Positions 10,325 through 49,872 of a stretch of 64,000 nt of DNA are shown in pieces (within the stretch, counting starts at the first letter, position 1; each line of letters begins with the position of its first letter). The notes under the pieces are model-generated. The model was not told where the DNA came from and made no database searches. It saw only the letters and a program-made list of their open reading frames with translations. The position numbers and the translations under genes are program-made. The stretch is from Rathayibacter oskolensis (GTDB lineage Bacteria; Actinomycetota; Actinomycetes; Actinomycetales; Microbacteriaceae), in NCBI RefSeq assembly GCF_900177245.1, contig NZ_FXBM01000002.1, forward strand, positions 124,001 to 188,000, written 5' to 3'.

Positions 10325-11122
10325 ATGTACCAGTTAGCACCCAACATCGAACTCCTCTTCACCGAGGCCGGCGCCGACTACGCCGATCGGGTCCGCGCGG
10401 CCGCGGCGGCGGGCTTCACGGCCGTCGAGATGTGGGGGCCGACGGGCGTCGATGCTCCTGCCAAGCCCAAGGACGTGCCCGCGCTCGCGGCGGCGCTGGA
10501 GGAGACCGGGCTCGTGCTCACCGCGCAGCTCTCGGAGCCGCGCACCCAGTTCATGATCCCGCCGTTCGACGACTCGCCGTTCTTCAACGCCCTCGACGGC
10601 GGCGTCGAGATCGCGCAGCAACTGAAGTGCACCAGGATGGTCGTGGGCAGCGGCACGGGCTTCGGCGGCAGCAAGCGCCAGGTGCAGCTGGACAAGCTCG
10701 CCGACATCTACCGACGGGCGATCGCGCAGATCGAGGGCTCCGGCATCACCCTCGTGCTCGAGCCGGTCAACGTCCGCGTCGACCACCCCGGCTCGCTCCT
10801 GGACCGCACCGCCGAGGCCGCCTACGTCGCCCGCCAGGTCGGCTCGCCCTTCTTCGGCGTGCTCTACGACCTCTACCACTCGACCGTCGAGGGCGAGGAC
10901 CCGGCGACCGAGCTCACCGCCGCCGCCGACGTCATCCGCTACGTGCAGATCGCCGACGCTCCGGGTCGCGGTGAGCCGGGCACCGGGGACATCGACTGGC
11001 CGGCCCGCCTCGCCGACCTGCGCGCTTCCGGCTACGACGGCCCGATCGGCCTGGAGTACTACCCGGAGACCGAGTCCGCGGCGTCGGTCGAGCGGATCAA
11101 GGAGTGGGCGGCCCAGGCATGA
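10325..11122 (+). CDS. Hydroxypyruvate-isomerase-like TIM-barrel sugar isomerase
   Basis: 265 aa xylose-isomerase-like TIM barrel. The four metal-ligand positions of the Hyi/IolE group are visible: E146 (LVLEPVNV), D182 (VLYDLYH), Q208 (RYVQIAD) and E244 (IGLEYYP). ATG at 10325 after a CCAGGAGA ribosome site. It probably isomerises or epimerises a sugar product such as a keto-sugar released by the neighbouring enzymes. It is shorter than, and distinct from, the deglycosidase alpha-like proteins downstream. Confidence 0.88.
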   Translation: MYQLAPNIELLFTEAGADYADRVRAAAAAGFTAVEMWGPTGVDAPAKPKDVPALAAALEETGLVLTAQLSEPRTQFMIPPFDDSPFFNALDGGVEIAQQLKCTRMVVGSGTGFGGSKRQVQLDKLADIYRRAIAQIEGSGITLVLEPVNVRVDHPGSLLDRTAEAAYVARQVGSPFFGVLYDLYHSTVEGEDPATELTAAADVIRYVQIADAPGRGEPGTGDIDWPARLADLRASGYDGPIGLEYYPETESAASVERIKEWAAQA

Positions 11123-12660
11123 CGGACGCAGGCATGAGTCGCTACCCCGAGCGCGTCGACGTCGCGATCGTCGGCAGCGGCCCCACCGGCGCCGCCTACG
11201 CCCGCATTCTCACCGAGACCTCGCCCGGCACCACGATCGCGATGTTCGAGCTCGGCCCCACTGTCACCTCGCCGGCCGGTGCGCACGTCAAGAACATCGA
11301 GGACCGCGACGAGCGCACCCGTGCCCAGCACCTCTCGGAGGGCTCGGCGGCCGGAGCCCCGACCATCAGCAACCCCGGGGGCGTGAAGGCCGGCATGCGC
11401 GCGGCCCGAGCCGGCACCTTCCTCCTCGACAAGCACTACCGGCTCGAGGGCGAGGACGGCCTGCCCGCCGTCGCGATGTCGAGCAACGTCGGCGGCATGG
11501 CGGCCCACTGGACCGGCGCCTGCCCGCGCCCCGGCGGCTCGGAGCGGATCGCCTTCCTCCCGGACCTCGACGAGCTGCTCGGCGAGGCGGAGCGCCTGCT
11601 CGGAGTCACGACGCACGCGTTCGACGGCGCGCCGTTCGGGGACCTGGTGCGCGAGCGCCTCGCCGAAGCGGTCGACGAGGGCCGCGTCGCCGAGACTGCG
11701 GTGCAGCCGATGCCGCTCGCCGCGCACCGCCGCGACGACGGCCGACTCGTGTGGTCCGGCTCGGATGTGGTGCTCGGCGACGAGACCCGCGCCAACCCCG
11801 ACTTCACGCTCTTCGACGAGTCGCAGGTCGTCCGGGTCGTTCTCGGAGCCGACGGCCGCGCCTCGGGAGTCGAGGTGCGGGACGTCCGCACCGGCGCCAG
11901 AAGCACCGTCGTGGCCCGCGCCGTCGTGGTCGCCGCCGACGCGTTGCGCACCCCGCAGCTGCTCTGGGCGTCGGGCGTCCGCCCGCCGGCCCTCGGCCGC
12001 ACACTCAACGACCAGGCGCAGATCGTCTTCGCCGTCCGGATCCGCGACGCGGCCGATGTCGTCCAAGCGGTCGACTCCGGCGCCGCCACCGGCCTCAGCG
12101 AGCAGAGCGGCGTCACCTGGGTGCCCTTCGTCGACGAGCTGCCCTTCCACGGGCAGATCATGCAGCTGGACGCCTCGCCCGTGCCGATCGCGGAGGACGA
12201 CCCGGCCGCACCCGGCTCGATCGTGGGCCTCGGCCTGTTCTGCGCCAAGGACCTGCAGTCGAGCGACCGCGTCGAGTTCTCGGACGACGAGCTCGACGAG
12301 ACAGGCCTGCCCGCGCCGGTGATCCACTACACGCTCACTGCGCGCGACCACGAGACGATCGGGCGCGCCTGTACCGAGATCGTGCGGCTCGGCCGGGCGA
12401 TCGGCGAGCCGCTCGACGACCGCGCGTTCGTGATGCCGCTCGGCTCCTCTTTGCACTACCAGGGCACCACACGGATGGGCGAGCACGACGACGGCGAGAG
12501 CGTCTGCGACACCGACAGCGAGGTCTGGGGAGTCCCTGGCCTGTTCCTCGGCGGCAACGGCGTGATCCCCACGGCGACCGCCTGCAACCCGACGCTCACC
12601 TCGGTCGGGCTCGCCGTCCGCGGCGCCCGTCGCATCGCCGACCGGCTCGCCCGCTCCTGA
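11119..12660 (+). CDS. GMC/pyranose-oxidase-like FAD oxidoreductase (candidate glycoside 3-oxidase)
   Basis: 513 aa. The FAD-binding motif GSGPTG is at residues 19-24. The C-terminal GMC block carries H446 (SSLHYQGTTRMG) and N490 (TACNPTLTSV), spaced as in pyranose oxidases. The ATG overlaps the previous stop (ATGA). In Microbacterium carminate degradation a related FAD enzyme, CarA, oxidises the C3 hydroxyl of the C-glucosyl group so that a deglycosidase can act. The two genes immediately downstream are the beta and alpha partners of such an enzyme. The glycoside 3-oxidase assignment is inferred from this context. Confidence 0.85.
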   Translation: MTDAGMSRYPERVDVAIVGSGPTGAAYARILTETSPGTTIAMFELGPTVTSPAGAHVKNIEDRDERTRAQHLSEGSAAGAPTISNPGGVKAGMRAARAGTFLLDKHYRLEGEDGLPAVAMSSNVGGMAAHWTGACPRPGGSERIAFLPDLDELLGEAERLLGVTTHAFDGAPFGDLVRERLAEAVDEGRVAETAVQPMPLAAHRRDDGRLVWSGSDVVLGDETRANPDFTLFDESQVVRVVLGADGRASGVEVRDVRTGARSTVVARAVVVAADALRTPQLLWASGVRPPALGRTLNDQAQIVFAVRIRDAADVVQAVDSGAATGLSEQSGVTWVPFVDELPFHGQIMQLDASPVPIAEDDPAAPGSIVGLGLFCAKDLQSSDRVEFSDDELDETGLPAPVIHYTLTARDHETIGRACTEIVRLGRAIGEPLDDRAFVMPLGSSLHYQGTTRMGEHDDGESVCDTDSEVWGVPGLFLGGNGVIPTATACNPTLTSVGLAVRGARRIADRLARS

Positions 12661-12724: not shown

Positions 12725-13120
12725 GTGATACCCGACCGCATCATCGAGAGCGGAACGCTCACCAGCCAGGGCGGCCGCGTCGCCGTCGAGGTCCGCATCC
12801 CGTGGTACCGCGCACTGCCGGGGTCGTGCATCGCGGGCGCCGGACTCACCGTCGACGGCGTCACCGCCCCGGAGGAGTCGCTGCGCTGGAGCATGAACGG
12901 CCGCGAGTTCCGCTTCGAGGAGCTCATCGACGCCACCGACGAGTGGTGGTTCCCGCTCGACTCCGCCGTCCTCTCGGGTGACCTCCCGCTCGCCGATTCC
13001 GACGCCGACCACGAGGTCGCCGTCGATCTGACGCTGTACATCCCGTACATCGTCACCGACCACGGCGTGCTCCACATCGAGGAGCACGGCACTGCGACCA
13101 TGAAGGCGGCCCAGTCATGA
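12725..13120 (+). CDS. C-glycoside deglycosidase beta-subunit-like protein, set 1 (DUF6379 type)
   Basis: 131 aa small beta-rich protein. The family hallmark PWYR is at residues 26-29, followed by a loop (GAGLTVDGV) and a C-terminal strand with LYIPYIV. In known C-glycoside deglycosidases (CarC, DgpB/C type complexes) this small subunit clamps onto the TIM-barrel alpha subunit and shapes the active site. Its stop overlaps the next start, so beta 1 and alpha 1 are coupled. It is one of five such domains in this window. Confidence 0.82.
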   Translation: MIPDRIIESGTLTSQGGRVAVEVRIPWYRALPGSCIAGAGLTVDGVTAPEESLRWSMNGREFRFEELIDATDEWWFPLDSAVLSGDLPLADSDADHEVAVDLTLYIPYIVTDHGVLHIEEHGTATMKAAQS

Positions 13121-14214
13121 CCCCCGGCACACCGATCCAGGGAGTGACGCTCTACAGCTTCACCCGCGCCTTCCACGCCCGCGAGTACGACCTCGAGCAG
13201 CTGATCCGCAAGGTCGCGACCGACGGCTACGGCCCGGGCCTCGAGATCATCGGCTTCTCCAGCTTCCGCGGCTTCCCCGAGATCGAGGACTCCTTCGCCG
13301 GGTGGTTCAAGGACCTGGTCGTCGAGACCGGCCTCGTGCAGACCTCGCTCGCGGTGAACGCCGACGTGGGTCTGCGCCGCGACCGCCTGCTCGACCAGGA
13401 CGAGCTGATCGCCTACATGGAGCGCCAGATCGTCGCCGCGGCGACCCTCGGCTTCCCGATCGCGCGCGTGCAGATCTCGCTGACGCCGGATTCGATGGAG
13501 GCGCTCCTCCCCGTCGCCGAGAAGCACGGCGTCACCCTCGCGCTCGAGGTGCACGCCGATCAGTACGCCTCGCACCCGCGGATCCTCGCGCTGCGGGACC
13601 GCTTCGCGCAGCTCGACTCCCCGCTGCTCGGCTTCACCGCCGACTGGGGGGCGACCGTCTCGGCGTTCGCGCCGTCGCTGCTGGAGGCCTACCGCCGCCG
13701 CGGCGCGAGCGACGAGCTGCTGCGCGCCGTCGTCGACCTGTGGAACGGCTTCTACGCCGAGGGCCCGCCCGCGAACCAGGAGGTGCACGGCCAGCGCTTC
13801 GGGGCGTTCATCGGCCTCGCGCACCGCTTCGGCCGGCCGGACCTCGGCATCGACTTCGCGATCAACGGCACCGGCCTCTTCGGCCCCGCGAGGGTCGAGG
13901 ACTGGCTCGAGATCATGCCGTTCGTGCGCCACGTGCACGGCAAGTTCTTCGGCATCGACGAGAACGCGGAGGAGCCGTCCGTCCCCGTGCGCGACCTCGT
14001 CCGCCTGCTCGTCGAGCAGGGCTACACCGGCGCGATCTCGAGCGAGTACGAGGGCTGGCACTGGAACTTCTGGCAGGACCCGTTCGAGATCATCCGCGAC
14101 GAGCAGGCCGTTCAGCGCTCGGCGGCCGAGGCCGCGGGCTCTCGGATGACGACCGACGCCGAGGCGGCGCGCGCCCAGCTCGCGCGGCACCTCGCCGCCC
14201 CGGTCCGCGCGTGA
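13117..14214 (+). CDS. C-glycoside deglycosidase alpha-subunit-like TIM barrel, set 1
   Basis: 365 aa xylose-isomerase-like TIM barrel. Metal-ligand candidates are E144 (LEVHAD), D176 (FTADWG), H274 (RHVHGKFF) and E310 (ISSEYEG); H146 follows the first ligand in the E-V/I-H pattern shared with sets 2, 4 and 5. ATGA overlap with beta 1. By analogy with characterised C-glycoside deglycosidases it would bind Mn2+ or a similar metal and cleave the sugar-aglycone C-C bond of a 3-keto-C-glycoside. An O-glycoside or isomerase role is possible. Confidence 0.82.
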   Translation: MTPGTPIQGVTLYSFTRAFHAREYDLEQLIRKVATDGYGPGLEIIGFSSFRGFPEIEDSFAGWFKDLVVETGLVQTSLAVNADVGLRRDRLLDQDELIAYMERQIVAAATLGFPIARVQISLTPDSMEALLPVAEKHGVTLALEVHADQYASHPRILALRDRFAQLDSPLLGFTADWGATVSAFAPSLLEAYRRRGASDELLRAVVDLWNGFYAEGPPANQEVHGQRFGAFIGLAHRFGRPDLGIDFAINGTGLFGPARVEDWLEIMPFVRHVHGKFFGIDENAEEPSVPVRDLVRLLVEQGYTGAISSEYEGWHWNFWQDPFEIIRDEQAVQRSAAEAAGSRMTTDAEAARAQLARHLAAPVRA

Positions 14215-14278: not shown

Positions 14279-15364
14279 ATGACAGACACGCAGACCACCA
14301 CCGCGACGTCGGACGGCATCGCCGGAACCGGCATCGAGCTCGGCACGACGCTCTACTCGATGACGAGCGAGTTCGCGGCCGGCCAGTACACGCCCGAGAC
14401 GCTGATCAAGGCCGTGCACGACGAGGGCATCGGCCCGGGCGTCGAGTTCAACATCGCGCAGCTGCTGCGCACCTACCCCGACGTCGACGACGAGTTCGTG
14501 AAGCTCTGGTTCGACTCGCTCGAGAAGTACGGCCTCGAGGCGAGCGCCGTCGGCACCAACCTCGACATGGGGCGCCGCAAGGAGCGCGACATGAGCCCCG
14601 ACGAGGAGCACGACTTCCTCGCCCGCCAGCTCGAGACGGCCCACACGCTCGGCTTCTCGAAGGTCGTCATCCGCTCGCACGGCAAGGAGCTGCTGCGCAG
14701 CCTCCTCCCGATCGCGGAGAAGTACGACCTCAAGCTCGGCTACGAGATCCACGCGCCGTCGGGGCCCAACAACCCGCAGGTGCTGCAGATGCGCGAGATG
14801 TACGACGAGCTGCAGTCCGACCGGCTCGGCTTCACGGCGGACTTCTCGTCGACCATGCACAGCCTCTCGCCGACCCTTCTGCGCACCCTGTCGCAGATGG
14901 GGATGGACGAGAGGCACTTCCCCGTGATGGACGAGATCTGGCACGAGCCGACTCCGATGCACGTGCGCAACCAGAAGTTCGAGGACTACCTCTCGGGCGA
15001 GGGCGTCGACTTCCTCCGCTTCGGGCCGTTCACACGCCTGGCCTTCAACATGCACGGGCTGGTGCCCCCGGAGGAGTGGCTCGACATCATGCCGCAGATC
15101 TTCCACGTGCACGCCAAGTTCTACGACATCGGCGCCGACGGCGAGGAGCCGGCGATGGACATACCGCGCATCGTGAAGCAGTTCGTCGACGGCGGCTACA
15201 CCGGCTACCTCTCCAGCGAATGGGAGGGCCACGCCTTCTCCGACCTGGGCGAGTCCGACCCGATCGACCTGGTGAAGAAGCAGCATGCGCTGATGCGCAC
15301 GGCGATCGAGGATGCCGTCGCCGCGTCGTCCGCCTCCGCCGACCCGTCCTCCCGCGAGCAGTAA
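14279..15364 (+). CDS. C-glycoside deglycosidase alpha-subunit-like TIM barrel, set 2
   Basis: 361 aa. Ligand positions: E156 and H158 (YEIHAPSG), D188 (FTADFS), H278 (FHVHAKFYD) and E314 (LSSEWEG). It closely resembles the alpha half of the fusion protein at 47317-48792, sharing STMH..SP, FNMHG and HVHAKFYDI blocks. The beta 2 gene follows 9 bases later. Probable role as for set 1, on a different substrate. Confidence 0.83.
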   Translation: MTDTQTTTATSDGIAGTGIELGTTLYSMTSEFAAGQYTPETLIKAVHDEGIGPGVEFNIAQLLRTYPDVDDEFVKLWFDSLEKYGLEASAVGTNLDMGRRKERDMSPDEEHDFLARQLETAHTLGFSKVVIRSHGKELLRSLLPIAEKYDLKLGYEIHAPSGPNNPQVLQMREMYDELQSDRLGFTADFSSTMHSLSPTLLRTLSQMGMDERHFPVMDEIWHEPTPMHVRNQKFEDYLSGEGVDFLRFGPFTRLAFNMHGLVPPEEWLDIMPQIFHVHAKFYDIGADGEEPAMDIPRIVKQFVDGGYTGYLSSEWEGHAFSDLGESDPIDLVKKQHALMRTAIEDAVAASSASADPSSREQ

Positions 15365-15373: not shown

Positions 15374-15772
15374 ATGGCCACGCACAACTCCCTCTTCGCC
15401 CCCGAGGACGTCCGCCGCACCGATGACGGCCTCGCCGTCTCGGTCCAGCTCCCCTGGTACCGCAGCCTCTGGCTCTCCGCGGTCTCGGACGTCGGCGCCA
15501 CCGTCGACGGCGTCCAGATCCCGCGCGAGCGCCTGCGCTTCGAGCTGCAGGGGAGGAGCTACCGCATCGAGGAGCTCGAGGACCAGTGGGAGACCCTCTG
15601 GTTCGTCGCCGACCGCCCCGACGTCGTGATCGCGCTCGACGACCCGCCGGCCGCCGGCGCTGCCGTGGAGGTCGAGATCGTCCTCACGATGCGCCTGCTC
15701 TACATGCAGATCGCTCCGCAGCGCTATGTCACCAACCGCGTGACCGTCGCCCGCGAGGCCGTGCTCGCGTAG
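15374..15772 (+). CDS. C-glycoside deglycosidase beta-subunit-like protein, set 2
   Basis: 132 aa, with PWYR at residues 27-30 and a C-terminal LYMQIAP strand. It starts MATHN after a TAAGGA ribosome site, exactly as the beta half of the fusion protein does. The gene order here is alpha then beta, the reverse of sets 1 and 4. It is the last gene of the long plus-strand operon beginning at 6709; it faces the minus-strand alpha 3 gene. Confidence 0.83.
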   Translation: MATHNSLFAPEDVRRTDDGLAVSVQLPWYRSLWLSAVSDVGATVDGVQIPRERLRFELQGRSYRIEELEDQWETLWFVADRPDVVIALDDPPAAGAAVEVEIVLTMRLLYMQIAPQRYVTNRVTVAREAVLA

Positions 15773-17408: not shown

Positions 17409-18989
17409 ATGACTCGTTCCTCCTCTTCTCCTGCTCCGTCCGCCACCGCGCCCGAGACGCCCGTCCTCTCGCCGCTCCGGCTCCGGCTGCTCGTCGGCTC
17501 CCTGCTCGCGGTGTCCTTCCTCGGCGCTCTCGACCACACCGTCGTCTCGACCTCGCTCGCCACGATCGCCGGCGACATCGGCGCGCTGGATCAGATGAGC
17601 TGGGTGATCGTCGCCTACACGCTCGCGAGCACCGTGCTGCTGCCGGTCCTCGGCCGCTTCGGCGACCAGGTCGGCCCGCGCCGCGTCTTCCTCGCCTCGC
17701 TCGTGCTCTTCCTGCTCGCCTCGCTGGTCTGCGGCTTCGCGACCGACCTGCCGCAGCTCATCGCGGCGCGAGTCGTGCAGGGGATGAGCTCGGCCGGGCT
17801 GCAGCTGATGTCGCAGACGATCGTCGCGACCGTCACGACGCCCCGCGACCGCCCGCGGGTCATGAGCATCGTCGGCGCTGCCTTCCCGCTCGCGATCCTG
17901 ATCGGCCCCGTGCTCGGCGGCCTGATCACCGACACCATCGGCTGGCCCTGGATCTTCTGGATCAACCTGCCGGTCGGCACCGCCGCGCTCGTCCTCGCGG
18001 TCTGGGCGATCCCGGCGCTCCCGCCGCGGGGCCGGCGCCGCTTCGACGGAGCGGGTGCCGTCGCCCTGACGGTCGCGCTGGTCGGCCTGGTCGTGGGAGT
18101 GACCCGCGTCGGCGCCGGCCTGGACGCGATCACCGTGTCCGCCTTCGCGGTGGCGGTGATCGCAGCCGCGGTGCTGGTCGTCGTCGAGCGCCGCACCGAC
18201 GTGCCGATCCTGCCGCTGCACCTGCTGCGCGACCGCACCGTCGCCTGCGCCATCGCCCTCTCGGCGATCATCGGCGTCGGCCTGTTCTCGATCGTCTCCT
18301 ACGTCCCGACCTTCATCCAGATGGCCTACCGGACCACCGCCACCGTCTCGGGGCTCGTGCCGATCGCCACGGTGTTCGGGATGCTCGTCGCCAACATCGC
18401 CTCGGGCTGGATCATCAGCCGCTCCGGCCGCTACCGGGCGTTCCCGCTGGTCGGCACGTCGCTGGCGACCGTCGGCCTCGCCGCGATGGCCTTCGTGCCG
18501 CACGGCGCTCCGCTCGTCGTTCCGATGGCGCTGATGGCCGTCGTCGGCATCGGCACCGGCTGCTTCATGAGCCTGATCGTGGTGCTCGCGCAGAGCGGTG
18601 TCGCGCCGGGCGAGATCGGCGCGATCACCGCGACGTCGAACCTCGTGCGGCAGATGGGCTCGACCGTCGGCACGGCGGCGATCGGCGGTGCGCTCGGTGC
18701 CGGCGTCGCTGCGCTCCTGCCCGCGGGGCTGGACGCCGCCCGGGCGACCCCCGAGGCGATCCGCTCGGCGGATGCGGCGACCCAGGAGGCGGTCGCCTCC
18801 GCCTACGCCGACGTGATGGCGCCGATCTTCCTCGTGCTCGCCGGCGTCTACGCCCTCGGGATCGTCGTCTCGGCGCTTCTGCCGCCCGCCCGCCTCTCCG
18901 ACGAGCGCCCTGCCGCAGCGACCGCTCCGGCATCGGCTCCCACCTCGACCTCCACCCCCACGTCCTCGACCGCCGACCGCCCGGCGTGA
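17409..18989 (+). CDS. MFS transporter, DHA2 (EmrB/QacA) type, 14 helices
   Basis: 526 aa with about 14 hydrophobic helices. The DHA2 hallmarks are present: LDHTVVSTSLATIAGDIG in helix 1, a WVIVAYTLAS helix and GRFGDQVGPRRVF in the first cytosolic loop. The ATG at 17409 is preferred; an upstream GTG at 17301 would add an unlikely polar extension. A CCGATCGATCGG palindrome sits 10 bp upstream (17388-17399). Lying between deglycosidase and GMC-oxidase genes, it may move glycosides or expel toxic aglycones. Direction of transport unknown. Confidence 0.88.
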   Translation: MTRSSSSPAPSATAPETPVLSPLRLRLLVGSLLAVSFLGALDHTVVSTSLATIAGDIGALDQMSWVIVAYTLASTVLLPVLGRFGDQVGPRRVFLASLVLFLLASLVCGFATDLPQLIAARVVQGMSSAGLQLMSQTIVATVTTPRDRPRVMSIVGAAFPLAILIGPVLGGLITDTIGWPWIFWINLPVGTAALVLAVWAIPALPPRGRRRFDGAGAVALTVALVGLVVGVTRVGAGLDAITVSAFAVAVIAAAVLVVVERRTDVPILPLHLLRDRTVACAIALSAIIGVGLFSIVSYVPTFIQMAYRTTATVSGLVPIATVFGMLVANIASGWIISRSGRYRAFPLVGTSLATVGLAAMAFVPHGAPLVVPMALMAVVGIGTGCFMSLIVVLAQSGVAPGEIGAITATSNLVRQMGSTVGTAAIGGALGAGVAALLPAGLDAARATPEAIRSADAATQEAVASAYADVMAPIFLVLAGVYALGIVVSALLPPARLSDERPAAATAPASAPTSTSTPTSSTADRPA

Positions 18990-19030
18990 CACCGTCGTCC
19001 GCCGCCGGCCCCCACCCTCAGGAGCATCCC

Positions 19031-20647
19031 GTGACCAGCACCAGCACCACCCGCACGACCCCCGTCGCCGTGATCATCGGCAGCGGCCCCATCGGCTCCG
19101 CGTACGCCCGGATCCTGCTCGAGTCGACCGACGACCTCCGCGTGGTCATGCTCGAGGCCGGGCCGCAGGTCACCGAGCGCCCCGGCGAGAGCGTGCGCAA
19201 CATCGCAGACCCCGACGAGAAGGAGCGGGCGCGCGAGCGCTCGCAGGGTCCGCAGGCGGGGGAGCACCGCGAGTCGCTCGGCATCCCGGCCGCCGCGGTG
19301 GTCGAGGGCATGTTCACCGCGCGGCAGGGCACGCACCTGCTCGACTTCGGCGGGGCGGGCGCCGCGCACACCGAGACCTTCCCGGCCGCCGCGGCGTCGA
19401 CGAACGTCGGCGGGATGGGCGCGCACTGGACCTGCGCGATTCCGCGCCCCGCCGGCTCCGAGCGGGTGCCGTTCCTCGACGAGGCCGAGTGGGACGGGCT
19501 GATCGCGACGGCGGAGGGCCTGCTGCACGCGCAGGCCGCCGCGTTCGCCGACTCCGGCATCGGCGCAGCGCTGCGCGCACTGCTCGCGGAGGAGTTCGGC
19601 GCCGAGCTGCCGGCGGACGCCGGCGTCGGGACCCTGCCGGTGGCTGGCGACCCGCAGCCCGACGGCACCATGCGCTGGGCCGGCGCCGACGTCGTGCTCG
19701 GCCCGCTGATCGACCCCGCATCGCCGCTCTCGCAGCGGTTCGAGCTGCGCGACCTGCACCTCGTCCGTCGCATCCTGCTCGAGGGCACGACCGCGGTCGG
19801 CGTCCGTGTCGAGGACCTGCGCAACGGCGAGGTCGAGGATCTGCCCGCCAATCTCGTCGTCGTGGCCGCGGATGCCTTCCGCACCCCGCAACTGCTCTGG
19901 GCCTCGGGTGTGCGGCCGGCGGCGCTCGGTCGCTATCTGACCGAGCACCCGGTGGTCATCTCGACCGTCTCGCTCGACGGGGAGTCGATGACGCGGTTCG
20001 CGACCCGCGACGACCTGGCGCGCGAGAAGGCGGCGCGCGCCCTGAACCCGGCCGACCCGATCTCCGCGGTCAACCGCATCCCGTTCTCCGAGCCCGGCCA
20101 CCCCTTCTCCCTGCAGGTGATGTACGCCGAGGACCCGCCCTTCCCTCTGTCGCCCGACCACCCCGAGCACGGCAACGAGTGGGGCTACGTGAACATGGGC
20201 TACGGCATGCGCAAGCAGCCGCGAGTCGAGGACGGCGTCTCGTTCGACGACGACGAGCTCGACTACCGGGGCTTCCCGAACATGACCGTCGAGTACGCGC
20301 TCGGCGAGCAGGAGCTCGCTGAGATCGCCGACGCCACCGAGCACCTCCGGCGCGCAGGGGAGGCGCTCGGAGTCTTCATCGCCGAGCCGCGCCTGCTCCC
20401 GCCGGGATCGAGCCTGCACTACATGGGCACGACCCGCATGGGTGCCGTCGACGACGGTACGTCGGTCGTCGACCCGGCATCGCGGGTCTGGGGGTACGAG
20501 GGCCTGGTGGTCGGCGGCAACGGAGTGATCCCGACGGCGACCTCGATGAACCCGACGCTGATGAGCGTGGCGCTGGCCGTCCGGGGTGCTCGGGAGGCCG
20601 CGAAGGAGCTGTCGCCGAACACCGCTTCTGCTTCAGATCGACGCTGA
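19031..20647 (+). CDS. Second GMC/pyranose-oxidase-like FAD oxidoreductase
   Basis: 538 aa. The FAD motif GSGPIG is near the N-terminus; H463 (SSLHYMGTTRMG) and N507 (TSMNPTLMSV) match the spacing in the paralogue at 11119-12660. The GTG at 19031 is preferred because CAGGAG lies 7 bases upstream; an in-frame GTG at 18986 overlaps the MFS stop. The stretch after the FAD motif (GPQVTERPGESVRNIADPDE) is also shared with the first paralogue. It probably oxidises a glycoside at C3. Two oxidases for five alpha/beta sets suggests different substrates. Confidence 0.84.
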   Translation: MTSTSTTRTTPVAVIIGSGPIGSAYARILLESTDDLRVVMLEAGPQVTERPGESVRNIADPDEKERARERSQGPQAGEHRESLGIPAAAVVEGMFTARQGTHLLDFGGAGAAHTETFPAAAASTNVGGMGAHWTCAIPRPAGSERVPFLDEAEWDGLIATAEGLLHAQAAAFADSGIGAALRALLAEEFGAELPADAGVGTLPVAGDPQPDGTMRWAGADVVLGPLIDPASPLSQRFELRDLHLVRRILLEGTTAVGVRVEDLRNGEVEDLPANLVVVAADAFRTPQLLWASGVRPAALGRYLTEHPVVISTVSLDGESMTRFATRDDLAREKAARALNPADPISAVNRIPFSEPGHPFSLQVMYAEDPPFPLSPDHPEHGNEWGYVNMGYGMRKQPRVEDGVSFDDDELDYRGFPNMTVEYALGEQELAEIADATEHLRRAGEALGVFIAEPRLLPPGSSLHYMGTTRMGAVDDGTSVVDPASRVWGYEGLVVGGNGVIPTATSMNPTLMSVALAVRGAREAAKELSPNTASASDRR

Positions 20648-36035: not shown

Positions 36036-36439
36036 CGGACGATCGTCACCTTCCTGGTGCTGCGGTACCGCGACGGCTGGTGCTCGATCGGGATGTAGGA
36101 GGCGCGGAGCAGCAGCTCGACCTCGACCTCGTGGACTCCCGGGGCGAGGCCGCCGGGATGCGGGACGGTGACGACTCCCGGTTCCTCGAGCTGCCAGCGC
36201 AGGCCGTCGCTCAGCCGCAGCTCGTCGATGCCGATGTCGCGGCCGTCGAAGCGCCAGAGCGGGGTGTCGTGGTCGACGTCGACGACATCGTCGACGCGCA
36301 CCGAGACTCCGTCGATGAGGCTCGCGGCCAGCCCCCGGTACGAGGGCATGCGCAGGTGCAGCCGGAAGCCGGTCACCTCGTCGCCCTCGCGGACGTTCGT
36401 GAAGCCCTGCGATTGGATGAGCTCTCTCTCCAGGAACAT
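36032..36439 (-). CDS. Deglycosidase beta-subunit-like protein, set 4
   Basis: 135 aa. The hallmark motif is PSYR (residues 32-35) instead of PWYR. The order of strands, the IDELRLSDGLRWQLEEPG middle and the C-terminal LLLRASYIPIEHQPSRY are as in the other beta proteins. CTGGAGAGA precedes the ATG. It is first gene of the beta 4-alpha 4 operon, with a TGTC-N7-GACA site about 50 bp upstream that also occurs before the fusion gene and ThuA. Confidence 0.78.
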   Translation of the reverse strand: MFLERELIQSQGFTNVREGDEVTGFRLHLRMPSYRGLAASLIDGVSVRVDDVVDVDHDTPLWRFDGRDIGIDELRLSDGLRWQLEEPGVVTVPHPGGLAPGVHEVEVELLLRASYIPIEHQPSRYRSTRKVTIVR

Positions 36440-38645: not shown

Positions 38646-38712
38646 CGACCCGCCCCGCGATCGCACCGATGTCGAGCATGGTGATGTCCCTGTCACCGTC
38701 GCGAGGAACCCC

Positions 38713-40694: not shown

Positions 40695-41265
40695 GCCGCG
40701 CGCCACGGCGCAGACGCCGTCGCAGACGGTCGGCCCGTTCTTCGGCTACGCGCTGCCCTACGACGGGGGCCCCGAGCTGGTCGCGCCGTCGCACCCGGCG
40801 GCCATCCGCCTCCGCGGCACGATCACCGACGGGGCAGGCGATCCCGTGCCCGACGCTATCGTCGAGATCTGGCAGCGCGACGCCGAGGGTCGCGTGCCGA
40901 CTGCGCGGGGGAGCCTGCTGCGCGACGGCATCGCCTTCACGGGATTCGGACGCACCGCCACCACGCGCTCCGGTGAGTACGCCTTCACCACGGTGCGCCC
41001 GGGAGCCCCCGACGGCGCGGAACCGTTCGTCGTCGTCACGGTCTTCGCGCGCGGCGTCACCCACCACCTGAGCACCCGCGCCTACTTCGCTGGCGACGAC
41101 TCCACCGACCGCCTGCTGCGCTCGCTCGATCCGGTGCGTCGGCGCACCCTGCTCGTCGTCGACGAGGGCGACGCGACGGGGCTGCCTGTCGTCCGGTTCG
41201 ACATCCGGCTGCAGGGCGAGGGCGAGACCGTCTTCCTCGACCTCTCGGGAGGACTCGATGGCTGA
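40687..41265 (+). CDS. pcaG: Protocatechuate 3,4-dioxygenase alpha subunit
   Basis: 192 aa with the N-terminal QTVGPFFGYALPYDGG block and the intradiol-dioxygenase beta sandwich (GTITDGAGDPVPDAIVEIWQ). It lacks the Fe ligands, as expected of the alpha subunit. Overlaps both neighbours. Confidence 0.95.
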   Translation: MSEPRATAQTPSQTVGPFFGYALPYDGGPELVAPSHPAAIRLRGTITDGAGDPVPDAIVEIWQRDAEGRVPTARGSLLRDGIAFTGFGRTATTRSGEYAFTTVRPGAPDGAEPFVVVTVFARGVTHHLSTRAYFAGDDSTDRLLRSLDPVRRRTLLVVDEGDATGLPVVRFDIRLQGEGETVFLDLSGGLDG

Positions 41266-42691: not shown

Positions 42692-43878
42692 CCGTCCCCG
42701 TGCTCGCCGGACTCACGACCGCGACGACCTCGTCCCGGGCCGACACCCCTCTGCTGGTGCTCGGCCCCTCACTCGGCACCACCACCCGGTTGTGGGAGGC
42801 GTGCCTGCCCGAGCTGGCGCGCTCGTTCCGAGTGCTGCGCTTCGACCTCCCCGGGCACGGGCGCAGCCCCGCCGCCTCCGAACCTTTCACGATCGACGAG
42901 CTGGCGCAGGCGGTGCTCGTCCTCGTCGACGCGGCCGGGGGCGGCGCCTTCCACTACGCGGGCATCTCGCTGGGCGGCGCGATCGGCCTGCAGCTCGCGG
43001 CCGACGCTCCCGAGCGGCTCGCCTCCCTCACCGTCGTCTGCTCGGCGCCCCGGATCGGCACTCCCGACGGCTGGGCCGAGCGGGCCGAGCGCGCCCGCCG
43101 CGGGGGCACCGCCTCCCTGGTCACGCTCAGCGCCGAGCGGTGGTTCGCGCCCGACTTCGTGCGCCTCGCCCCCGACACCGTCGGTGCCGCGCTGGGCGAG
43201 CTGGTCGATGTCGACGACGAGTCCTACGCGCTGTGCTGCGAGGCGCTCGCGGGCCCGGGGGAGCGGACGGTCACGAGCGAGGTCCTGCTCGTCGCCGGCG
43301 CGGTCGACGCCGCGATGCCGCTCGAGAGCGTGCGCGAGCAGGCCGAGGCGATGCCCCGCGCCCGCGTCGAGGTGCTCGACGGAGTCGCGCACCTGCCCGG
43401 CTACGAGGCGCCCGCACGACTGGCCGCGATCGTCGCGCGCCACGCCTCCGCGGGCACGTCGACCCGCCGGGCCGTGCTCGGCGACGCGCACGTCGCCGCC
43501 GCCGCAGCGCGCGTCACGCCCGAGACCGCCGACTTCCAGGAGTTCCTCACGCGCTACGCCTGGGGTGAGGTGTGGACGAGGCCCGGTCTCGCCCGACGCG
43601 AGCGCAGCATGATCACCCTCGCTGCGCTGGTGGCGCTGCGCGCCGAGGATGAGATCCCGATGCACCTGCGCGGTGCGCTGCGCAACGGCGTCACCCGCGC
43701 CGAGCTCTCGGAGGTGCTGCTGCACACCGCGCTCTACGCGGGGCTGCCGGCCGCCAACTCCGCGTTCGCGCGCCTCCGCGAGGTGCTGGCCGAGCTCGGC
43801 GGCACCGACTCCGGCGCCACCGACCCCGGCGGCACCGACCCCACGACCACGAACGACGAAGCAGAGGACCGACGATGA
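42688..43878 (+). CDS. pcaL: Fused 3-oxoadipate enol-lactonase / 4-carboxymuconolactone decarboxylase
   Basis: 396 aa, two domains. Residues 1 to about 250 are an alpha/beta hydrolase (nucleophile S94 in GISLGG, His in GVAHLPGY), the PcaD activity. Residues from about 270 on are a carboxymuconolactone decarboxylase ([21 protein letters not shown]...HLRGALRNG), the PcaC activity. Such PcaD-PcaC fusions are typical of actinobacteria. A glycine/threonine/aspartate-rich tail follows. Confidence 0.95.
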
Positions 43879-44675
43879 CGGTGGACAAGAGCCGAGCGAG
43901 CGCGGCGGTCGCCGTCGCGGACATCCCCGACGGAGCCTCGATCGCGGTGGGCGGCTTCGGCCTGGTCGGCGTGCCGATCGTGCTGATCCGCGCGCTCCTC
44001 GCCCAGGGCACGACGGGCCTGTCGGTGGTCTCGAACAACTGCGGGGTCGACGGCTGGGGTCTCGGCGAGCTGCTCGCAGCGGGCCGGATCGACCGCGTCA
44101 CCGCCTCCTACATCGGCGAGAACAAGGACTTCGCGCGCCGCTACCTCGGCGGCGAACTGGAGGTCGAGCTGACCCCTCAGGGCACGCTCGCCGAGCGGCT
44201 GCGCGCCGGTGGCAGCGGCATCCCCGCCTTCTTTACCGCCAGCGGCGTCGGCACGATGGTCGCCGAGGGCGGGCTCCCCTGGCGCTACGGCGCCGACGGC
44301 AGTGTCGTCGTGCGGAGCGACCCCAAGGAGGTACGCGTCTTCGAGTCGCTCGGGAAGCCCGCGCAGTACGTGCTCGAGGAGGCGATAGTCACCGACTTCG
44401 CGTTCGTGCGCGCCGCTCGTGGCGACCGCCACGGCAACCTCGTCTTCGCGAGGTCGGCACGCAACTTCAACCCGCCGGCTGCGATGGCGGGGCGCATCAC
44501 GATCGCCGAGGTCGACGAGCTCGTCGAGCCGGGCGTGCTCGATCCCGACGACATCCACCTGCCGGGCATCTACGTCGACCGCATCGTCGAGCTCTCGGCC
44601 GACGAGGCCGCCGACCTGCCGATCGAGAAGCGCACCGTGAGGCCCCGCGCCTCGCGAGAGGAGGTTCGCGCATGA
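43875..44675 (+). CDS. pcaI: 3-oxoadipate CoA-transferase subunit A
   Basis: 266 aa class I CoA-transferase alpha subunit with the GGFG oxyanion motif ([13 protein letters not shown]), [12 protein letters not shown], and a CoA-transferase end block ([20 protein letters not shown]). It activates 3-oxoadipate with succinyl-CoA as donor, with PcaJ. ATGA overlaps on both sides. Confidence 0.94.
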
Positions 44676-45325
44676 CCCCGCTCACCCGTGACGAGATGGC
44701 TGCCCGCGCGGCTCTCGAACTCACCGACGGCGCCTACGTGAACCTCGGAATCGGGCTGCCGACGCTCATCCCCAACCACATCCCCGACGGCGTCGAGGTG
44801 ATCCTCCACTCCGAGAACGGCGTGCTGGGTGTCGGGCCCTACCCGTGGGAGGGCGAGGAGGATCCCACCCTCATCAACGCGGGCAAGGAGACCATCACCG
44901 TGAACTCAGGCGCCGCCTACTTCGACTCCGCGCAGAGCTTCGCGATGATCCGCAGCGGTCGCGTCGACGTGGCCGTGCTGGGCGCGATGCAGGTCTCGGT
45001 GCACGGGGACATCGCCAACTGGGCGGTGCCCGGGCGCATGGTCAAGGGCATGGGAGGCGCGATGGACCTCGTCCACGGCGCCGACACGGTCATCGTGCTG
45101 ATGGAGCACGTGACGAAGACCGGCGAGCACAAGATCGTGCCCGAGTGCCTCCTGCCCCTCACCGGACGCCGGGTCGTCGACCGCATCGTGACCGACCTCG
45201 CCGTGATCGACGTGACCGAGGAGGGGCTGGTGCTGCGCGAGACGGCGCCCGGTGTCACCGTCGCCGAGGTGCAGGCCGCGACCGGTGCTCCCCTGATCGT
45301 GGCCGTCGCGGAGTCGACACGATGA
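44672..45325 (+). CDS. pcaJ: 3-oxoadipate CoA-transferase subunit B
   Basis: 217 aa class I CoA-transferase beta subunit. The catalytic glutamate is E48 in LHSENGVLG, and the [10 protein letters not shown] and [14 protein letters not shown] blocks are typical. Overlaps pcaI and pcaF by ATGA. Confidence 0.95.
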
Positions 45326-46548
45326 CGCAGCTGCGCGAGGTCGTCGTCTGCGAGCCGCTGCGCACCCCCATCGGCCGCCTCGGCGGAGCGCTGCGCACGG
45401 TCGCTCCGTCCGAGCTCGCCGCCACCGTGCTGCGTGCGCTCGTCGAACGCACAGGACTCGACGGGGGCGACGTCGACGACGTGATCCTCGGTCAGGGCTA
45501 CCCCACGGCCGAGGCCCCGCCGATCGGACGCGTCGCCGCCCTCGATGCAGGCCTTCCGATCACGGTCGGCGGCGCCCAGGTCGACCGGCGCTGCGGGTCC
45601 GGGCTGCAGGCCGTGCTCGACGCCGCGATGCAGATCCAGACCGGGGTCAGCGATCTCTGCCTCGCGGGCGGAGTCGACTCGATGAGCCAGGCGCCGCTCT
45701 ACACGGTCGAGGGGCGCTGGGGCGTGCCGGGTACCGGCGGCCTGCTCCTCCGTGACGCACTGGGTCGCGGTCGCGAGACAGCGGGGGGCCGGAACCACCC
45801 GGTCCCCGGCGGGATGCTCGAGACAGCGGAGAACCTCCGTCGCGAGTACGGGATCGCACGGGAGGCGCAGGACGCGCTGGCCCTGCGCTCGCACCGGCGC
45901 GCGGTCGCCGCGATCGACGCGGGTCTGTTCGCCGACGAGATCGTGCCTGTCGCGGTGCTCGGCCGTCGCGGCGCCTCCGTGCTGGTCGAGCGCGATGAGG
46001 GCCCGCGCGCCGACACCACGCTCGACGCGTTGGCGCGGCTCTCGCCCGTGCGGCACGACCTCGACGACGCGGCCACGGTGACCGCCGGCAACGCCTCCGG
46101 TCAGAACGACGCCGCTGCCGTGTGCATCGTCACGACTCCCGAGCGGGCCACGCAGCTGGGCCTGCGTCCGCTGGTCCGGCTCGTCTCGTGGGCCCGTGCC
46201 GGCGTCGAACCCGAGCGGATGGGCATCGCGCCCGTCGCCGCGACCGCGCGCGCCCTCGACCGCGTCGGTCTGACCCTGGCCGACATGGACCTCATCGAGC
46301 TGAACGAGGCCTTCGCCGCGCAGGTTCTCGCGGTCGGCCGCGAGTGGCGCTTCACCGACGACGACTGGGAGCGCACCAATCCGCTCGGCTCGGGGATCTC
46401 GCTCGGCCACCCGGTGGGAGCGACGGGCGCCAGGATGCTCGCGACCGGCTCGCGTCACCTCGCGCGCACGGGGGGCCGTCACCTGCTCGAGACGATGTGC
46501 ATCGGCGGCGGGCAGGGCCTCGCCGCGGTCTGGGCCGCCTGCGAGTAG
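45322..46548 (+). CDS. pcaF: 3-oxoadipyl-CoA thiolase
   Basis: 408 aa thiolase. Nucleophile C91 ([12 protein letters not shown]), NEAFAAQ loop, GHPVGATG and the second cysteine in [11 protein letters not shown]. It cleaves 3-oxoadipyl-CoA to acetyl-CoA and succinyl-CoA, finishing the beta-ketoadipate pathway. Last gene of the pob/pca operon. Directly after its stop lies the remnant of a toxin gene on the other strand. Confidence 0.93.
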
Positions 46549-46550
46549 CG

Positions 46551-46826
46551 GATCCTGCCACCCTTGTCGACACAGCTCCAGAAGACGCCTGACGAGACCT
46601 CGAGCTGTTCACGCCAGATGTGCGACCACATCGATGAGGAGCAGTCGCTCCGGTCGATCGGACGTGCGATCCGGGTGCGCAGGACGCGGGTGTCCCGGAG
46701 TGTGAGTTCCTACGTCCAGTGATGAGTGACGGGCTCGCCGCTCGCGCTCCGGACCAGCGTCCACTTCTCCGTCTCGCCTAACTGATCGTGTTCCTCGCGT
46801 GTGGCCGGCGGATGCTTCTCACTCAC
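46551..46826 (-). pseudogene. Remnant of a toxin-antitoxin toxin gene (in-frame amber stop, truncated)
   Basis: Starting at GTG 46826, which overlaps the antitoxin stop, the frame reads VSEKHPPATREEHDQLGETE and on to THHWT, then TAG at 46710-46712. Beyond it the same frame continues with RDTRVLRTRIARPID, SMWSHIWREQLEV and FWSCVD up to the end of pcaF. This layout resembles actinobacterial proteins annotated as cytotoxic translational repressors of toxin-antitoxin systems. The usual C-terminal part is missing. The family call is from memory of motifs. Confidence 0.55.
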
Positions 46827-47004
46827 CGCTGTGCCTGAACCAGGCGATCAGCTCGTCGTCGGTGGACAGCCTGACCAGCTGCACGAGAGCCCAGTTCTCA
46901 CTGTGGTTCGGTGCGTGCTGGAGTCGGGCCTCCCAGTCCTCCGCATACTCGCGGAGGGAGAGTGCCAGATCGTCGAGAGCGCCGTCGACATCGGCGCCCT
47001 CGGA

Positions 47005-47112
47005 GACGAACGGCCGGTCCTCCGTCAGGGCGATGACTCGGTCGCCCTCGTGCGCGACGGAGATGCGGGGGGCGACCGAGTCATCGCCCTGACGGAGGAC
47101 CGGCCGTTCGTC
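47005..47112. repeat. Perfect 42-bp inverted repeat with 24-bp loop
   Basis: Arms 47005-47046 and 47071-47112 are exact reverse complements. The right arm is followed by a further copy of CGTCAGGGCGATGA (47109-47122), also present in the left arm (47023-47036). This pattern fits template switching or a chimeric assembly. Confidence 0.9.
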
Positions 47113-47120
47113 AGGGCGAT

Positions 47121-47163
<43 letters not shown>

Positions 47164-47316
47164 GACCGTGCGGAGGAAGTAGTCACGGAGACGATCGGCC
47201 GACACGTGGTCGTTACGGCGCATGGTCCCGGTTCGCCCGTGCTCGACGGAGTCCAGGACGTCCTTCCGGTGCATGCGAGCGTCAGAGGCAGTCGGCTCGA
47301 GGCCCGCCGAGCCTCC

Positions 47317-48792
47317 TCAGACCGCGGCGAGGCTCGCGTGCATCGCCCGGCGGATCAGGTTGTGCTGCCGCCGCACGAGCGCGATCGGGTCGACCTCCCC
47401 GAGGTCGAGGAACGCGTGTCCCTCCCACTCGCTCGACATGTAGCCGCGGAATTCGCCGCGCACGAAGACGTCCACGATCGCCGGGTAGTCGATCGCCGGC
47501 TCCTGCCCCTCGTCGTCGATGTCGTAGAACTTCGCGTGCACGTGCAGGATCTGCGGCATGATGTCGGCCCACTCCTCCACGGGCACGTGACCGTGCATGT
47601 TGAACGCGAGGAACGCGAACGAGCCGAAGTCGCCCGGGTCGATGCCGCGCGATGACAGATAGCCGAGGAACTCGCCCTGGCGCTCGCGACCGGGGGCGTC
47701 CCCGGCCCAGATGCGCTGGAGTGTCGCGGTCGCCTCCTCGTCGAGTCCCATCCGGCGCATCGTGCGGAGGATCGCGGGCGACATCGCGTGCATCGTCGAC
47801 GAGAAGTCGGCGACGAAGCCCAGCAGCGGTGAATCGAGCTCGGCGTAGAGCTCGCGGATCTCCTGCACAGCCGGTGCGTTGGGGCCCGACGGGGCGTGGA
47901 TCTCGTAGCCCAGCGCGACGTCGAGCGACTCCGCGAGGGGGAGGAGGCGCTCGAGCAGGGTGCGCCGCGCGCTCTGGATCCGCATGAGCGGGAACCCGAG
48001 GCGGTGGGCGCCGCGCAGCAGCTCGGCCGAGAACTCGTACTCCTCGTCGTCGTTCATGTCTCGCGTGCGCAGGCGCCCCATGTCGAGGTTCGCGCCGAAG
48101 GCGCTCGCCTCGAAGCCGTGACGGTCGAACGCCGCGCGCCAGGTCGAGACGAAGTCGGGAGTGACGACGGGGTACTCGCGGAGGGTCTGCGACGCGACGA
48201 TCTCGATCCCGGGGCCGACGCCCTCCTGGGCGACGCGGACGAGCAGCGACTCGAGGTCGTACTGTCCCGCGTTGAGCTCCGAGGTCGCGGAGTAGAGGGT
48301 CAGCCCGAGCTTGAACGGCTCGTCCGGCGCGGCGGGCACCGCCTCCACGGTGGTCGTCTCGAGCCGGAGCTCGTCGTGAGTGGGCTCCTCGGCGGTCCGC
48401 GCGATGAGATCGCGGGTCTGGTGGACGACCTGGGGCACGTAGGTCTCAGGCTTGATCTGCATGTAGGGCAGGCTCAGTCGAGCGGAGGCGACCACGCGGT
48501 GGGTCGACCCTGCGGCGATCGGCGCGTCGAGGGCCAGCACGAGCGTCGCCGCGTCCGAGAGGAACCAGAGGACGTCACACTGCTCGCGCAGCTCGTCGAC
48601 GCGGTAGGAGCGCCCGGCGAGCTCGAAGCGGAGTCGGTCGGTGCTCACTGGAGAGCCGTTGATCGACACCTCCAGACCGTCGACGGATGACAGCCAGAGG
48701 CTGCGGTACCAGGGCAGGTGGAGTAGGAGCGCGGCGCCGTCGGGGTGGACCCGCAGGCTGTGGTCGTCGATCAGGATGTTGTGGGTCGCCAT
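47317..48792 (-). CDS. Natural beta-alpha fusion of a C-glycoside deglycosidase-like enzyme (set 5)
   Basis: 491 aa. Residues 1 to about 130 are a complete DUF6379-type beta domain (PWYR at 27-30; LPYMQIKPETY). A roughly 30-residue linker rich in E, T and P follows, then from about 159 a full TIM-barrel alpha domain with E297 and H299 (YEIHAPSG), D329 (FVADFS), H419 (LHVHAKFYD) and E455 (MSSEWEG). Both halves are closest to set 2. The ATG at 48792 is preferred over 48813 because AAGG lies upstream and beta 2 also starts MATHN. Divergent from a ThuA gene. Confidence 0.88.
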   Translation of the reverse strand: MATHNILIDDHSLRVHPDGAALLLHLPWYRSLWLSSVDGLEVSINGSPVSTDRLRFELAGRSYRVDELREQCDVLWFLSDAATLVLALDAPIAAGSTHRVVASARLSLPYMQIKPETYVPQVVHQTRDLIARTAEEPTHDELRLETTTVEAVPAAPDEPFKLGLTLYSATSELNAGQYDLESLLVRVAQEGVGPGIEIVASQTLREYPVVTPDFVSTWRAAFDRHGFEASAFGANLDMGRLRTRDMNDDEEYEFSAELLRGAHRLGFPLMRIQSARRTLLERLLPLAESLDVALGYEIHAPSGPNAPAVQEIRELYAELDSPLLGFVADFSSTMHAMSPAILRTMRRMGLDEEATATLQRIWAGDAPGRERQGEFLGYLSSRGIDPGDFGSFAFLAFNMHGHVPVEEWADIMPQILHVHAKFYDIDDEGQEPAIDYPAIVDVFVRGEFRGYMSSEWEGHAFLDLGEVDPIALVRRQHNLIRRAMHASLAAV

Positions 48793-48801
48793 GCCGAGAA
48801 C

Positions 48802-48815
48802 CTTATGTCTCATTC
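48802..48815. promoter_or_regulatory. CTTATGTCTCATTC site before the fusion gene
   Basis: Ten bases upstream of the fusion start. It shares TTATGTCT with the site at 48897 and CTTATGTC with 6598-6605. Confidence 0.4.
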
Positions 48816-48896
48816 AATCAAAAGAGGGCCTCCATACCGAACGTCGATGACCGACATCACCGGAGGCAGATGCGCCGATTTCACCGCGAGCTTTGC

Positions 48897-48914
48897 TTTA
48901 TGTCTGAATTCGAC
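48897..48914. promoter_or_regulatory. TTTATGTCTGAATTCGAC site in the divergent fusion/ThuA promoter
   Basis: Contains TGTC-TGAATTC-GAC, identical over 14 bases to the reverse complement of the set 4 upstream site. It lies midway between the divergent starts at 48792 and 49003. Confidence 0.55.
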
Positions 48915-49002
48915 TTTAGTGTGTAGAAAAATGACTCTGAGGTCGACAGGCCGCTCACCGATGAGCTGGACCCGCCCGCGCACCTCGCCTCTGGAGGTCC
49001 CT

Positions 49003-49872
49003 ATGCCCGACGTCCTCGACGTGCTCATCCTCTCCGGTCACATGACCATCGAGCACGACAACGAGTTCCGCAGCTTCCGCACTCACAATCAGTGGCTCAC
49101 CACGGTGCTCCAGGACACGGGCCGCTTCCGCGTCCGCGTCACGGAGGACCCCCGTGGCCTCACCTCCGCGATCATCGACCGCTACGACGTGGTGATCGTC
49201 GTCTTCGAGGGCCGCGACGGCTACCACGAGAAGGCGACTGGGTTCGGCGCCGAGACCGACGCCGCGCTCCTGCGCTTCGTGCACGACGAGGGCAAGGGCA
49301 TCGTCTGGTTCCACGGCTCCGCGGTGCAGGAGGACGACTGGGGCTACCCCGAGGAGTACAACGTGATGCGCGGCGCGAAGCTGAGCGTGCCGACCGGTAT
49401 CCGCCCGCGCCCCTGGGGGGAGGCGCTGCTGACGACCGCCGAGCCGCGCCATGCGATCACCGAGGGCATCTCGAAGACCTGGACCGTCACCGGCGACGAC
49501 ATCCTCACCGGAGTCGAGCTCTACGACGGCGCGGAGGTGCTGATCAGCACCTTCGACGATCTCGAGTCGTACGAGAACGCCCCGGTGTGGCCGATGTCGC
49601 ACTACCCGGTCGCCATTCCCGAGACCGGACTCGCCGACCTGCCCGGCATGAACACCGATCAGCCCCTCGCCTGGATCAATCGCTACGGAGCCGGCCGTTC
49701 GTTCACCATCACCATCGGGCACGACATCGACACGTTCCGGCGCATCGAGTTCATCCGGATGTTCCCGCGCGGAGTCGAGTGGGCGGCTACCGGCGAGGTC
49801 ACGCTCAGCGGGCCCGACCGCCGAGGCGACCGGCGCTTCCTGCCGTGGCCCTACTACAACCAGGAGGGCTGA
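49003..49872 (+). CDS. Second ThuA-family protein
   Basis: 289 aa ThuA-like domain: VLILSGHMTIEHDNEF at the N-terminus, YDVVIVVFEGRDGY, GIVWFHGSAVQEDDWGYPEEYN, and RSFTITIGHDIDTFRR near the end, where many ThuA proteins have a GHD/GR motif. CTGGAGG precedes the ATG. It is divergent from the fusion deglycosidase gene and shares its control region, so it probably acts on the keto-sugar released or on its glycoside. Confidence 0.85.
   Translation: MPDVLDVLILSGHMTIEHDNEFRSFRTHNQWLTTVLQDTGRFRVRVTEDPRGLTSAIIDRYDVVIVVFEGRDGYHEKATGFGAETDAALLRFVHDEGKGIVWFHGSAVQEDDWGYPEEYNVMRGAKLSVPTGIRPRPWGEALLTTAEPRHAITEGISKTWTVTGDDILTGVELYDGAEVLISTFDDLESYENAPVWPMSHYPVAIPETGLADLPGMNTDQPLAWINRYGAGRSFTITIGHDIDTFRRIEFIRMFPRGVEWAATGEVTLSGPDRRGDRRFLPWPYYNQEG

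Follow-up and report, generated by a model that had tools for sequence, protein, structure and literature searches.

Can both subunits of a C-glycoside deglycosidase (CGD) be carried on one polypeptide, and if so, is the fusion genuine and what would such a chain do? A gene of Rathayibacter oskolensis, here called P0001, raises these questions. CGDs of gut and soil bacteria are built from alpha and beta subunits, with the active site set between the metal-binding barrel of one and a beta-sandwich that helps to hold the aglycone (PMC8563793). Cleavage of 3-keto-C-glycosides proceeds by beta-elimination (PMC10628242, PMC13273386), and the reverse reaction, C-glycosylation, has been demonstrated for PuCGE (PMC13273386).

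Gene Structure and Domain Content

P0001 lies at 47317..48792 on the minus strand of the window, the 64,000-nucleotide stretch of R. oskolensis DNA that was analyzed, and encodes 491 aa plus a stop. A preliminary description of the locus had these coordinates right and left the strand unstated. The plus strand contains stops in the same frame, and the coding sequence is on the minus strand only. We read the gene from the ATG at 48792 (N-terminus MATHN...). Translation from another ATG, at 48813, would make the protein 7 aa longer; we favor the shorter form because AAGG is found 8 nt 5′ of its ATG and because its N-terminus fits the start of the AgCGD2 beta subunit in alignment.

The chain consists of an N-terminal CGDB/DUF6379 beta-sandwich (residues 1–125; 48418..48792, minus strand), a 33-residue linker (residues 126–158; 48319..48417, minus strand) that is coding as judged by GC3, and a TIM-barrel alpha domain (residues 159–491; 47320..48318, minus strand). 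Pfam CGDB (PF19906) matches residues 19–110 (E 1.7e-14), and its score of 54 bits passes the cut-off of 27.6. In a PDB search, residues 1–130 match the AgCGD2 beta subunit (7dnm_B, E 2.7e-29) and residues 160–486 match the AgCGD2 alpha subunit (7dnm_A, E 2.3e-125) with zero gaps. Thus, P0001 numbering equals AgCGD2 alpha numbering plus 150, and the P0001 alpha domain should still have the lid region. AP_endonuc_2 (PF01261) matches residues 195–474 (E 3.3e-6) at 27.4 bits, under the curated cut-off of 31.1, and none of the NCBIfam models matches P0001 at E 0.001.

These matches bear out the preliminary description in that complete beta and alpha domains share one chain, that the first domain is DUF6379, and that the protein is a single-chain form of a normally heteromeric enzyme of the CarB/CarC (CGD) family. 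Both domains lie within one uninterrupted frame, where CGDs usually have separate chains. Separate chains are the usual CGD trait and not a defining one, since 8qrz also holds both domains on one chain.

Metal Site, Catalytic Residues and Aglycone Pocket

CGD family members have a xylose-isomerase-like TIM-barrel alpha subunit with a Glu/Asp/His/Lys/Glu metal site and a catalytic His with a partner Glu, together with a beta subunit Tyr for the aglycone oxyanion. P0001 has all of these. Alignment to AgCGD2 alpha places five metal ligands at E297, D329, H419, K421, and E455. The ligands had been noted before but counted as four; the E-I-H motif noted with them is present. E297-I-H299 (47896..47904) supplies a ligand Glu and the catalytic His (AgCGD2 E147 and H149), D329 (47806..47808) corresponds to D179, H419-A-K421 (47530..47538) corresponds to H269 and K271, and E455-W-E457 (47422..47430) supplies the last ligand and the Glu partner of the His (E305 and E307), all on the minus strand. 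In the beta domain, Y29 (48706..48708, minus strand) is the equivalent of Tyr39 of the PuCGE beta subunit (DgpB) by alignment to 7bvr_B. Tyr39 is required for C-glycoside cleavage and hardly for O-glycoside cleavage (PMC10628242). The five ligands, H299, E457, and Y29 are identical in 29/29 aligned sequences, comprising P0001 itself and 28 fused orthologues.

The aglycone pocket is conserved in part. Y167, N398, and M399, the equivalents of AgCGD2 Tyr17, Asn248, and Met249 of the alpha subunit, are also identical in 29/29. AgCGD2 Arg123, an aglycone contact in a docking model with orientin, is replaced by Q273 (Gln in 29/29), and Pro241 by S391. Because of these two replacements, the substrate of P0001 may differ from that of AgCGD2. 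Thr3 of the AgCGD2 beta subunit touches the aglycone (PMC8563793) and aligns with T3 of P0001. Among the 29 aligned sequences, Thr3 is found in two, P0001 and its Curtobacterium relative (locus L001), and Met in three; 24 rows are unaligned at that position. Other fused genes whose N-termini were inspected start with MPNGL. An insert of about six residues after YMQI, found in Microbacterium-type fusions, is missing from P0001 and L001, and substrates therefore probably differ between the two groups.

Integrity and Distribution of the Fusion

We scanned contigs for relatives of P0001 and retained the best 80 of 85. The fusion is uninterrupted in 68 of these 80 loci, of which 57 are assigned by NCBI to the Microbacteriaceae, 10 to the Micrococcaceae, and one to no family. 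A misassembly or frameshift artifact, for which a check of reads across the linker had been recommended, is thereby ruled out; the P0001 frame itself runs through the linker without a stop. The counts also run against the rarity implied by the preliminary description, as does the related beta-first fusion in the PDB (8qrz/8un2). In eight of the other 12 loci (L065–L072), beta and alpha are separate, beta-first genes. At L058 (6001–7464), beta and alpha (54% to P0001) are in the same frame with a single TGA between them, a natural near-fusion. L061 and L078 are P0001-type fusions with broken frames (pseudogenes or sequencing errors), and L080 ends at a contig boundary. A copy was also seen on an Arthrobacter plasmid.

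Close orthologues show purifying selection on the linker. For six close orthologue pairs, dN/dS is 0.11–0.30 in the linker, 0.10–0.35 in the beta domain, and 0.06–0.18 in the alpha domain. For P0001 and L001 the values are 0.80, 0.44, and 0.38, respectively, but this pair is near saturation, so the selection holds for close orthologues and not directly for P0001. In P0001, linker GC3 (residues 126–159) is 0.94. The distance from the YVP motif to LGxTLYS is 41 residues in 24/29 sequences and 40–44 in the rest, with 44 in both P0001 and L001, and a Met occurs inside the linker in 4/29. The orthologue data thus indicate that the frame is translated through and that the junction is nearly constant in length.

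These data also bear on whether the chain is cut in the linker, or the alpha domain additionally made from an internal start, to give the usual heterodimer. Many orthologues have a linker that is variable in sequence and rich in proline and acidic residues, which speaks for this reading. The near-constant junction length, the selection on the linker among close orthologues, and the scarcity of linker Met (GTG starts apart) make this reading very improbable.

Fused genes are found across genera and yet are infrequent. Out of 297 genomes of the order, sampled around the Curtobacterium genome, 12 had any match and three a full-length match. In a CGDB survey of 396 Actinomycetota genomes, five had a match at E 0.001, three of them above the cut-off. 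The other two, weak CGDB hits within long ORFs (L137, L138), found no support from purpose-built HMMs.

Predicted Function

On the evidence above, we consider it likely that P0001 is a single-chain C-glycoside deglycosidase (a 3-keto-C-glycoside lyase) of the AgCGD2 branch, which probably strips sugars off plant compounds by breaking a C–C bond. A GMC oxidase would first oxidize the sugar of the glycoside at C3. The N-terminal beta-sandwich would fold back in cis over the barrel mouth and rebuild the active site of the heterodimer. Mn2+ would be bound by the five ligands, H299, backed by E457, would abstract the C2 proton, and Y29 of the beta domain would hold the ionized phenol ortho to the scissile bond. 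Beta-elimination would then break the C–C bond to give the aglycone and 2-hydroxy-3-keto-glucal. In this way the enzyme, encoded in an extensive region for the catabolism of glycosides and aromatic compounds, may make the carbon of plant glycosides available.

The closest characterized relative of P0001 is AgCGD2 of Arthrobacter globiformis (AgCarB2/AgCarC2, PDB 7DNM/7DNN), a C-glycoside deglycosidase for C8-glycosides. The two share both domains at the sequence level, the five metal ligands, the catalytic His and Glu, Thr3 of beta, the three conserved pocket residues, and an alpha domain that aligns without a gap. AgCGD2 differs in being encoded by two genes, alpha first, and in having Arg123 and Pro241 in place of Gln273 and Ser391. 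A preference of P0001 for C8-linked glucosides, by analogy with AgCGD2, is a weak guess. On an A. globiformis contig, a distance of about 8 kb separates a fused gene from the genes for AgCGD2, whose alpha product matches 7dnm_A residue-for-residue over 352 aa.

PuCGE/PuCGD (DgpB–DgpC, 7BVR/7EXZ) has the same fold family, metal site, Tyr39 of beta, and catalytic His, but is assembled from two gene products into an alpha4-beta4 hetero-octamer (PMC8563793). The O-glycoside beta-eliminase AtOGE (8BVK) shares the TIM barrel, Mn2+, the catalytic His, and beta-elimination of 3-keto-glucosides; it has neither a beta subunit nor a lid, and its sequence is unrelated (PMC10628242). That beta and alpha act jointly was already known from the structures of AgCGD2, PuCGD, and EuCGD and from the finding that C-glycoside activity disappears when beta is missing (PMC8563793, PMC10628242). 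The fusion is suggestive of such cooperation but, contrary to the preliminary claim, does not prove it.

A single-chain lyase with the same mechanism could instead act on 3-keto-O-glycosides. PuCGE also cleaves O-linked 3-keto-phlorizin, and its alpha subunit alone retains about 1.4% of the activity (PMC10628242). The Gln in place of AgCGD2 Arg123 would fit such a substrate. The solute-binding protein of an ABC sugar transporter, a family assigned from one representative, was present in 50 of the 81 stretches that were clustered, and suggests sugar-like substrates. Against O-glycosides stand the strict conservation of Y29, the equivalent of the C-glycoside-specific tyrosine of PuCGE, and the C8-glycoside activity of AgCGD2, and we regard this alternative as unlikely.

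The nearest relative of P0001 among the best 80 of 85, L001 of Curtobacterium (67%), suggests that the fused chain is self-sufficient. In that genome (completeness not given), one P0001 match and one CGDB match were found, both of them the fused gene. An MFS transporter gene precedes the L001 gene by 12 nt, and nearby are a divergently oriented GMC oxidase (a glycoside-oxidase homologue) and a ROK-family gene. The best PDB matches of the oxidase are 8qve (400 bits), 7dve (352 bits), and PsG3Ox (7qf8, 334 bits). This neighborhood fits a two-enzyme pathway of oxidase and fused lyase.

The two-chain family and a solved fused member of another clade (8QRZ) are already known. Our literature search, which covered main texts mostly from outside the subscription journals, returned no description of a P0001-type fusion or of 8QRZ, and we found no mention of fused proteins in excerpts of the 2021 CGD paper (PMC8563793). 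Within the literature searched, a single-chain member of the AgCGD2 branch was not found in print. The fusion is real and conserved, and many related soil bacteria carry it. If P0001 is indeed an AgCGD2-like C-glycoside lyase, an enzyme from one gene would be simpler to express, evolve, and use, in either direction, than one of two subunits.

Other Fused Types and Unfused Relatives

P0001 is not the only type of beta-first fusion. The deposited "Sugar phosphate isomerase" 8QRZ/8UN2 is a single chain of 435 aa, and in the PDB search 8qrz_A matched the P0001 beta and alpha domains in the same order. The two are of the same family and differ in clade and in the shorter linker of 8QRZ; 8QRZ-type neighbors are about 25–28% to P0001. 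In the alpha tree, P0001 groups with the AgCGD2-type rows (100/100), outside the 8QRZ-type clade. A Microbacterium ORF directly upstream of a P0001-type fusion (L040) matches 8qrz over residues 1–433 (965 bits), and 8QRZ therefore looks like a natural beta-first fusion from another clade.

In 55/68 fused loci, another beta-alpha fusion terminates immediately upstream of the fused gene; of these upstream ORFs, only that of L040 was compared with 8QRZ. In BLAST clustering, the family of the L040 upstream ORF was present in 59/81 stretches. The two adjacent fused enzymes may therefore work in series; the Curtobacterium genome with just one fused gene found and the invariance of the three pocket residues (29/29) argue against this, and we regard it as improbable.

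A third fused type (L097, L133) has E-I-Q where others show E-I-H, and a fourth is represented by L108. E-I-Q likewise replaces the catalytic E-I-H in a diverged TIM barrel of the window (set 3, 15815–16846, minus strand) and in its relatives, which include L104 and L008 besides this third fused type; the likely beta partner of the window protein is divergently oriented (16819–17268, plus strand). The E-I-Q proteins are predicted to have lost the catalytic base.

The window also contains an unfused 8QRZ-type pair with an ATGA overlap (beta 36032–36439, alpha 35142–36035, minus strand). In the alpha tree, this split counterpart of the 8QRZ-type fusion is the sister (98/96) of the main fused group of that type, and the two offer a good before-and-after comparison.

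Origin of the Fusion and Domain Order

The alpha tree was built from 65 dereplicated alpha domains out of 229 of at least 285 aa. It requires nine changes of fused state, at least eight of them forced by well-supported branches, and the beta tree requires eight, at least six forced. The four fused types occupy separate supported positions, although gain and loss cannot be told apart on the trees. Repeated fusions with surviving split relatives amount to a natural experiment on the effects of joining the two chains of a heterodimer.

In the alpha tree, P0001 pairs with L001 (100/99), and the Microbacterium-type fusions join next (100/97); this group has as its neighbors split pairs with beta first and the rows of AgCGD2/set 2. 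A single fusion for P0001 and the Microbacterium type is thus recovered in the alpha tree but not in the beta tree. In AU tests, neither one nor two fusions was rejected (beta p 0.516, alpha alternative p 0.351). Split pairs have a beta tail and an N-terminal alpha extension that together resemble the linker. This suggests a beta-first operon as the source of the fusion, in which the stop and the spacer between the two genes were probably lost.

The preliminary description contrasted the beta-first order with the closest relatives in the window, set 2, whose genes were correctly given as alpha-first (alpha 14279..15364, 7dnm_A 617 bits; beta 15374..15772; plus strand). Set 2 is AgCGD2-type and is indeed the closest within the window (56% to P0001 alpha, 45% to P0001 beta), but beyond the window, fused orthologues and split beta-first pairs are closer. 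Alpha subunits of the split pairs L065–L072, the most similar unfused relatives, are 62–66% to P0001, and these pairs are beta-first like the fusion, whose order is thus not unusual. Within the supported clade of P0001, alpha-first order occurs solely on the AgCGD2/set 2 branch; alpha-first pairs are found elsewhere in the CGD family too.

The proposed search for other beta-first fusions found 147 fused ORFs in beta-alpha order and none in alpha-beta order, in overlapping loci chosen by likeness to P0001. Unfused dereplicated rows comprise 28 beta-first (including L061, a broken fusion), six alpha-first, two divergent, and two alone. A beta-first bias among fusions is not significant, with about four fusions and 28/34 same-strand unfused pairs that are also beta-first. 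A role of Thr3 in causing this order is unsupported, as Thr3 is present in just 2/29 aligned sequences. As a wider proposal, which we regard as possible but doubtful, a self-sufficient C–C lyase would form a complete two-protein pathway for C-glycoside deglycosylation with one glycoside 3-oxidase, as in the Curtobacterium arrangement, and beta and alpha would have fused at least four separate times in the family, beta-first in every case seen. The reason might be a need for an unblocked beta N-terminus next to the aglycone pocket, which is the weakest part of the proposal.

Genomic Neighborhood

From 8 to 36.5 kb, the window contains CGD sets 1–3, the unfused 8QRZ-type pair, two GMC oxidases, an ABC permease, and a hydroxypyruvate-isomerase-like protein. 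Set 1 is a beta-first pair (beta 12725..13120, 31% to P0001 beta; alpha 13117..14214, 34% to P0001 alpha; plus strand). Both GMC oxidoreductases are likely glycoside 3-oxidases. The first (11104..12660, plus strand) matches PF05199/PF00732, and scores 211 bits against NCBIfam pyranose_ox, under the cut-off of 545. The second (18986..20647, plus strand) matches 7dve (362 bits), PsG3Ox (7qf8, 362 bits), and 8qve (358 bits) in the PDB. P0001 itself has no adjoining GMC oxidase gene in the window.

Protocatechuate pathway genes (38700–46550, plus strand) adjoin P0001. They encode a 4-hydroxybenzoate hydroxylase, PcaHG, a PcaB-like protein, a PcaDC fusion, a CoA-transferase, and a thiolase (about 38.7–46.5 kb). 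The region resembles a catabolic island for glycosides and aromatic compounds, and, judging by position alone, the product of P0001 may feed the protocatechuate pathway. A 151-aa ORF with a long proline run (46819–47274, minus strand) has no Pfam match at E 0.01 and is a doubtful gene. Divergent from the fusion is a ThuA-family ORF (48745..49872, plus strand; PF06283, E 2e-25), whose real start is probably further in. Another ThuA-family ORF is located near the CGD genes (4641–5420, minus strand), and genes of the ThuA cluster also occur near a CGD gene in five other loci (L005, L045, L067, L068, and L069).
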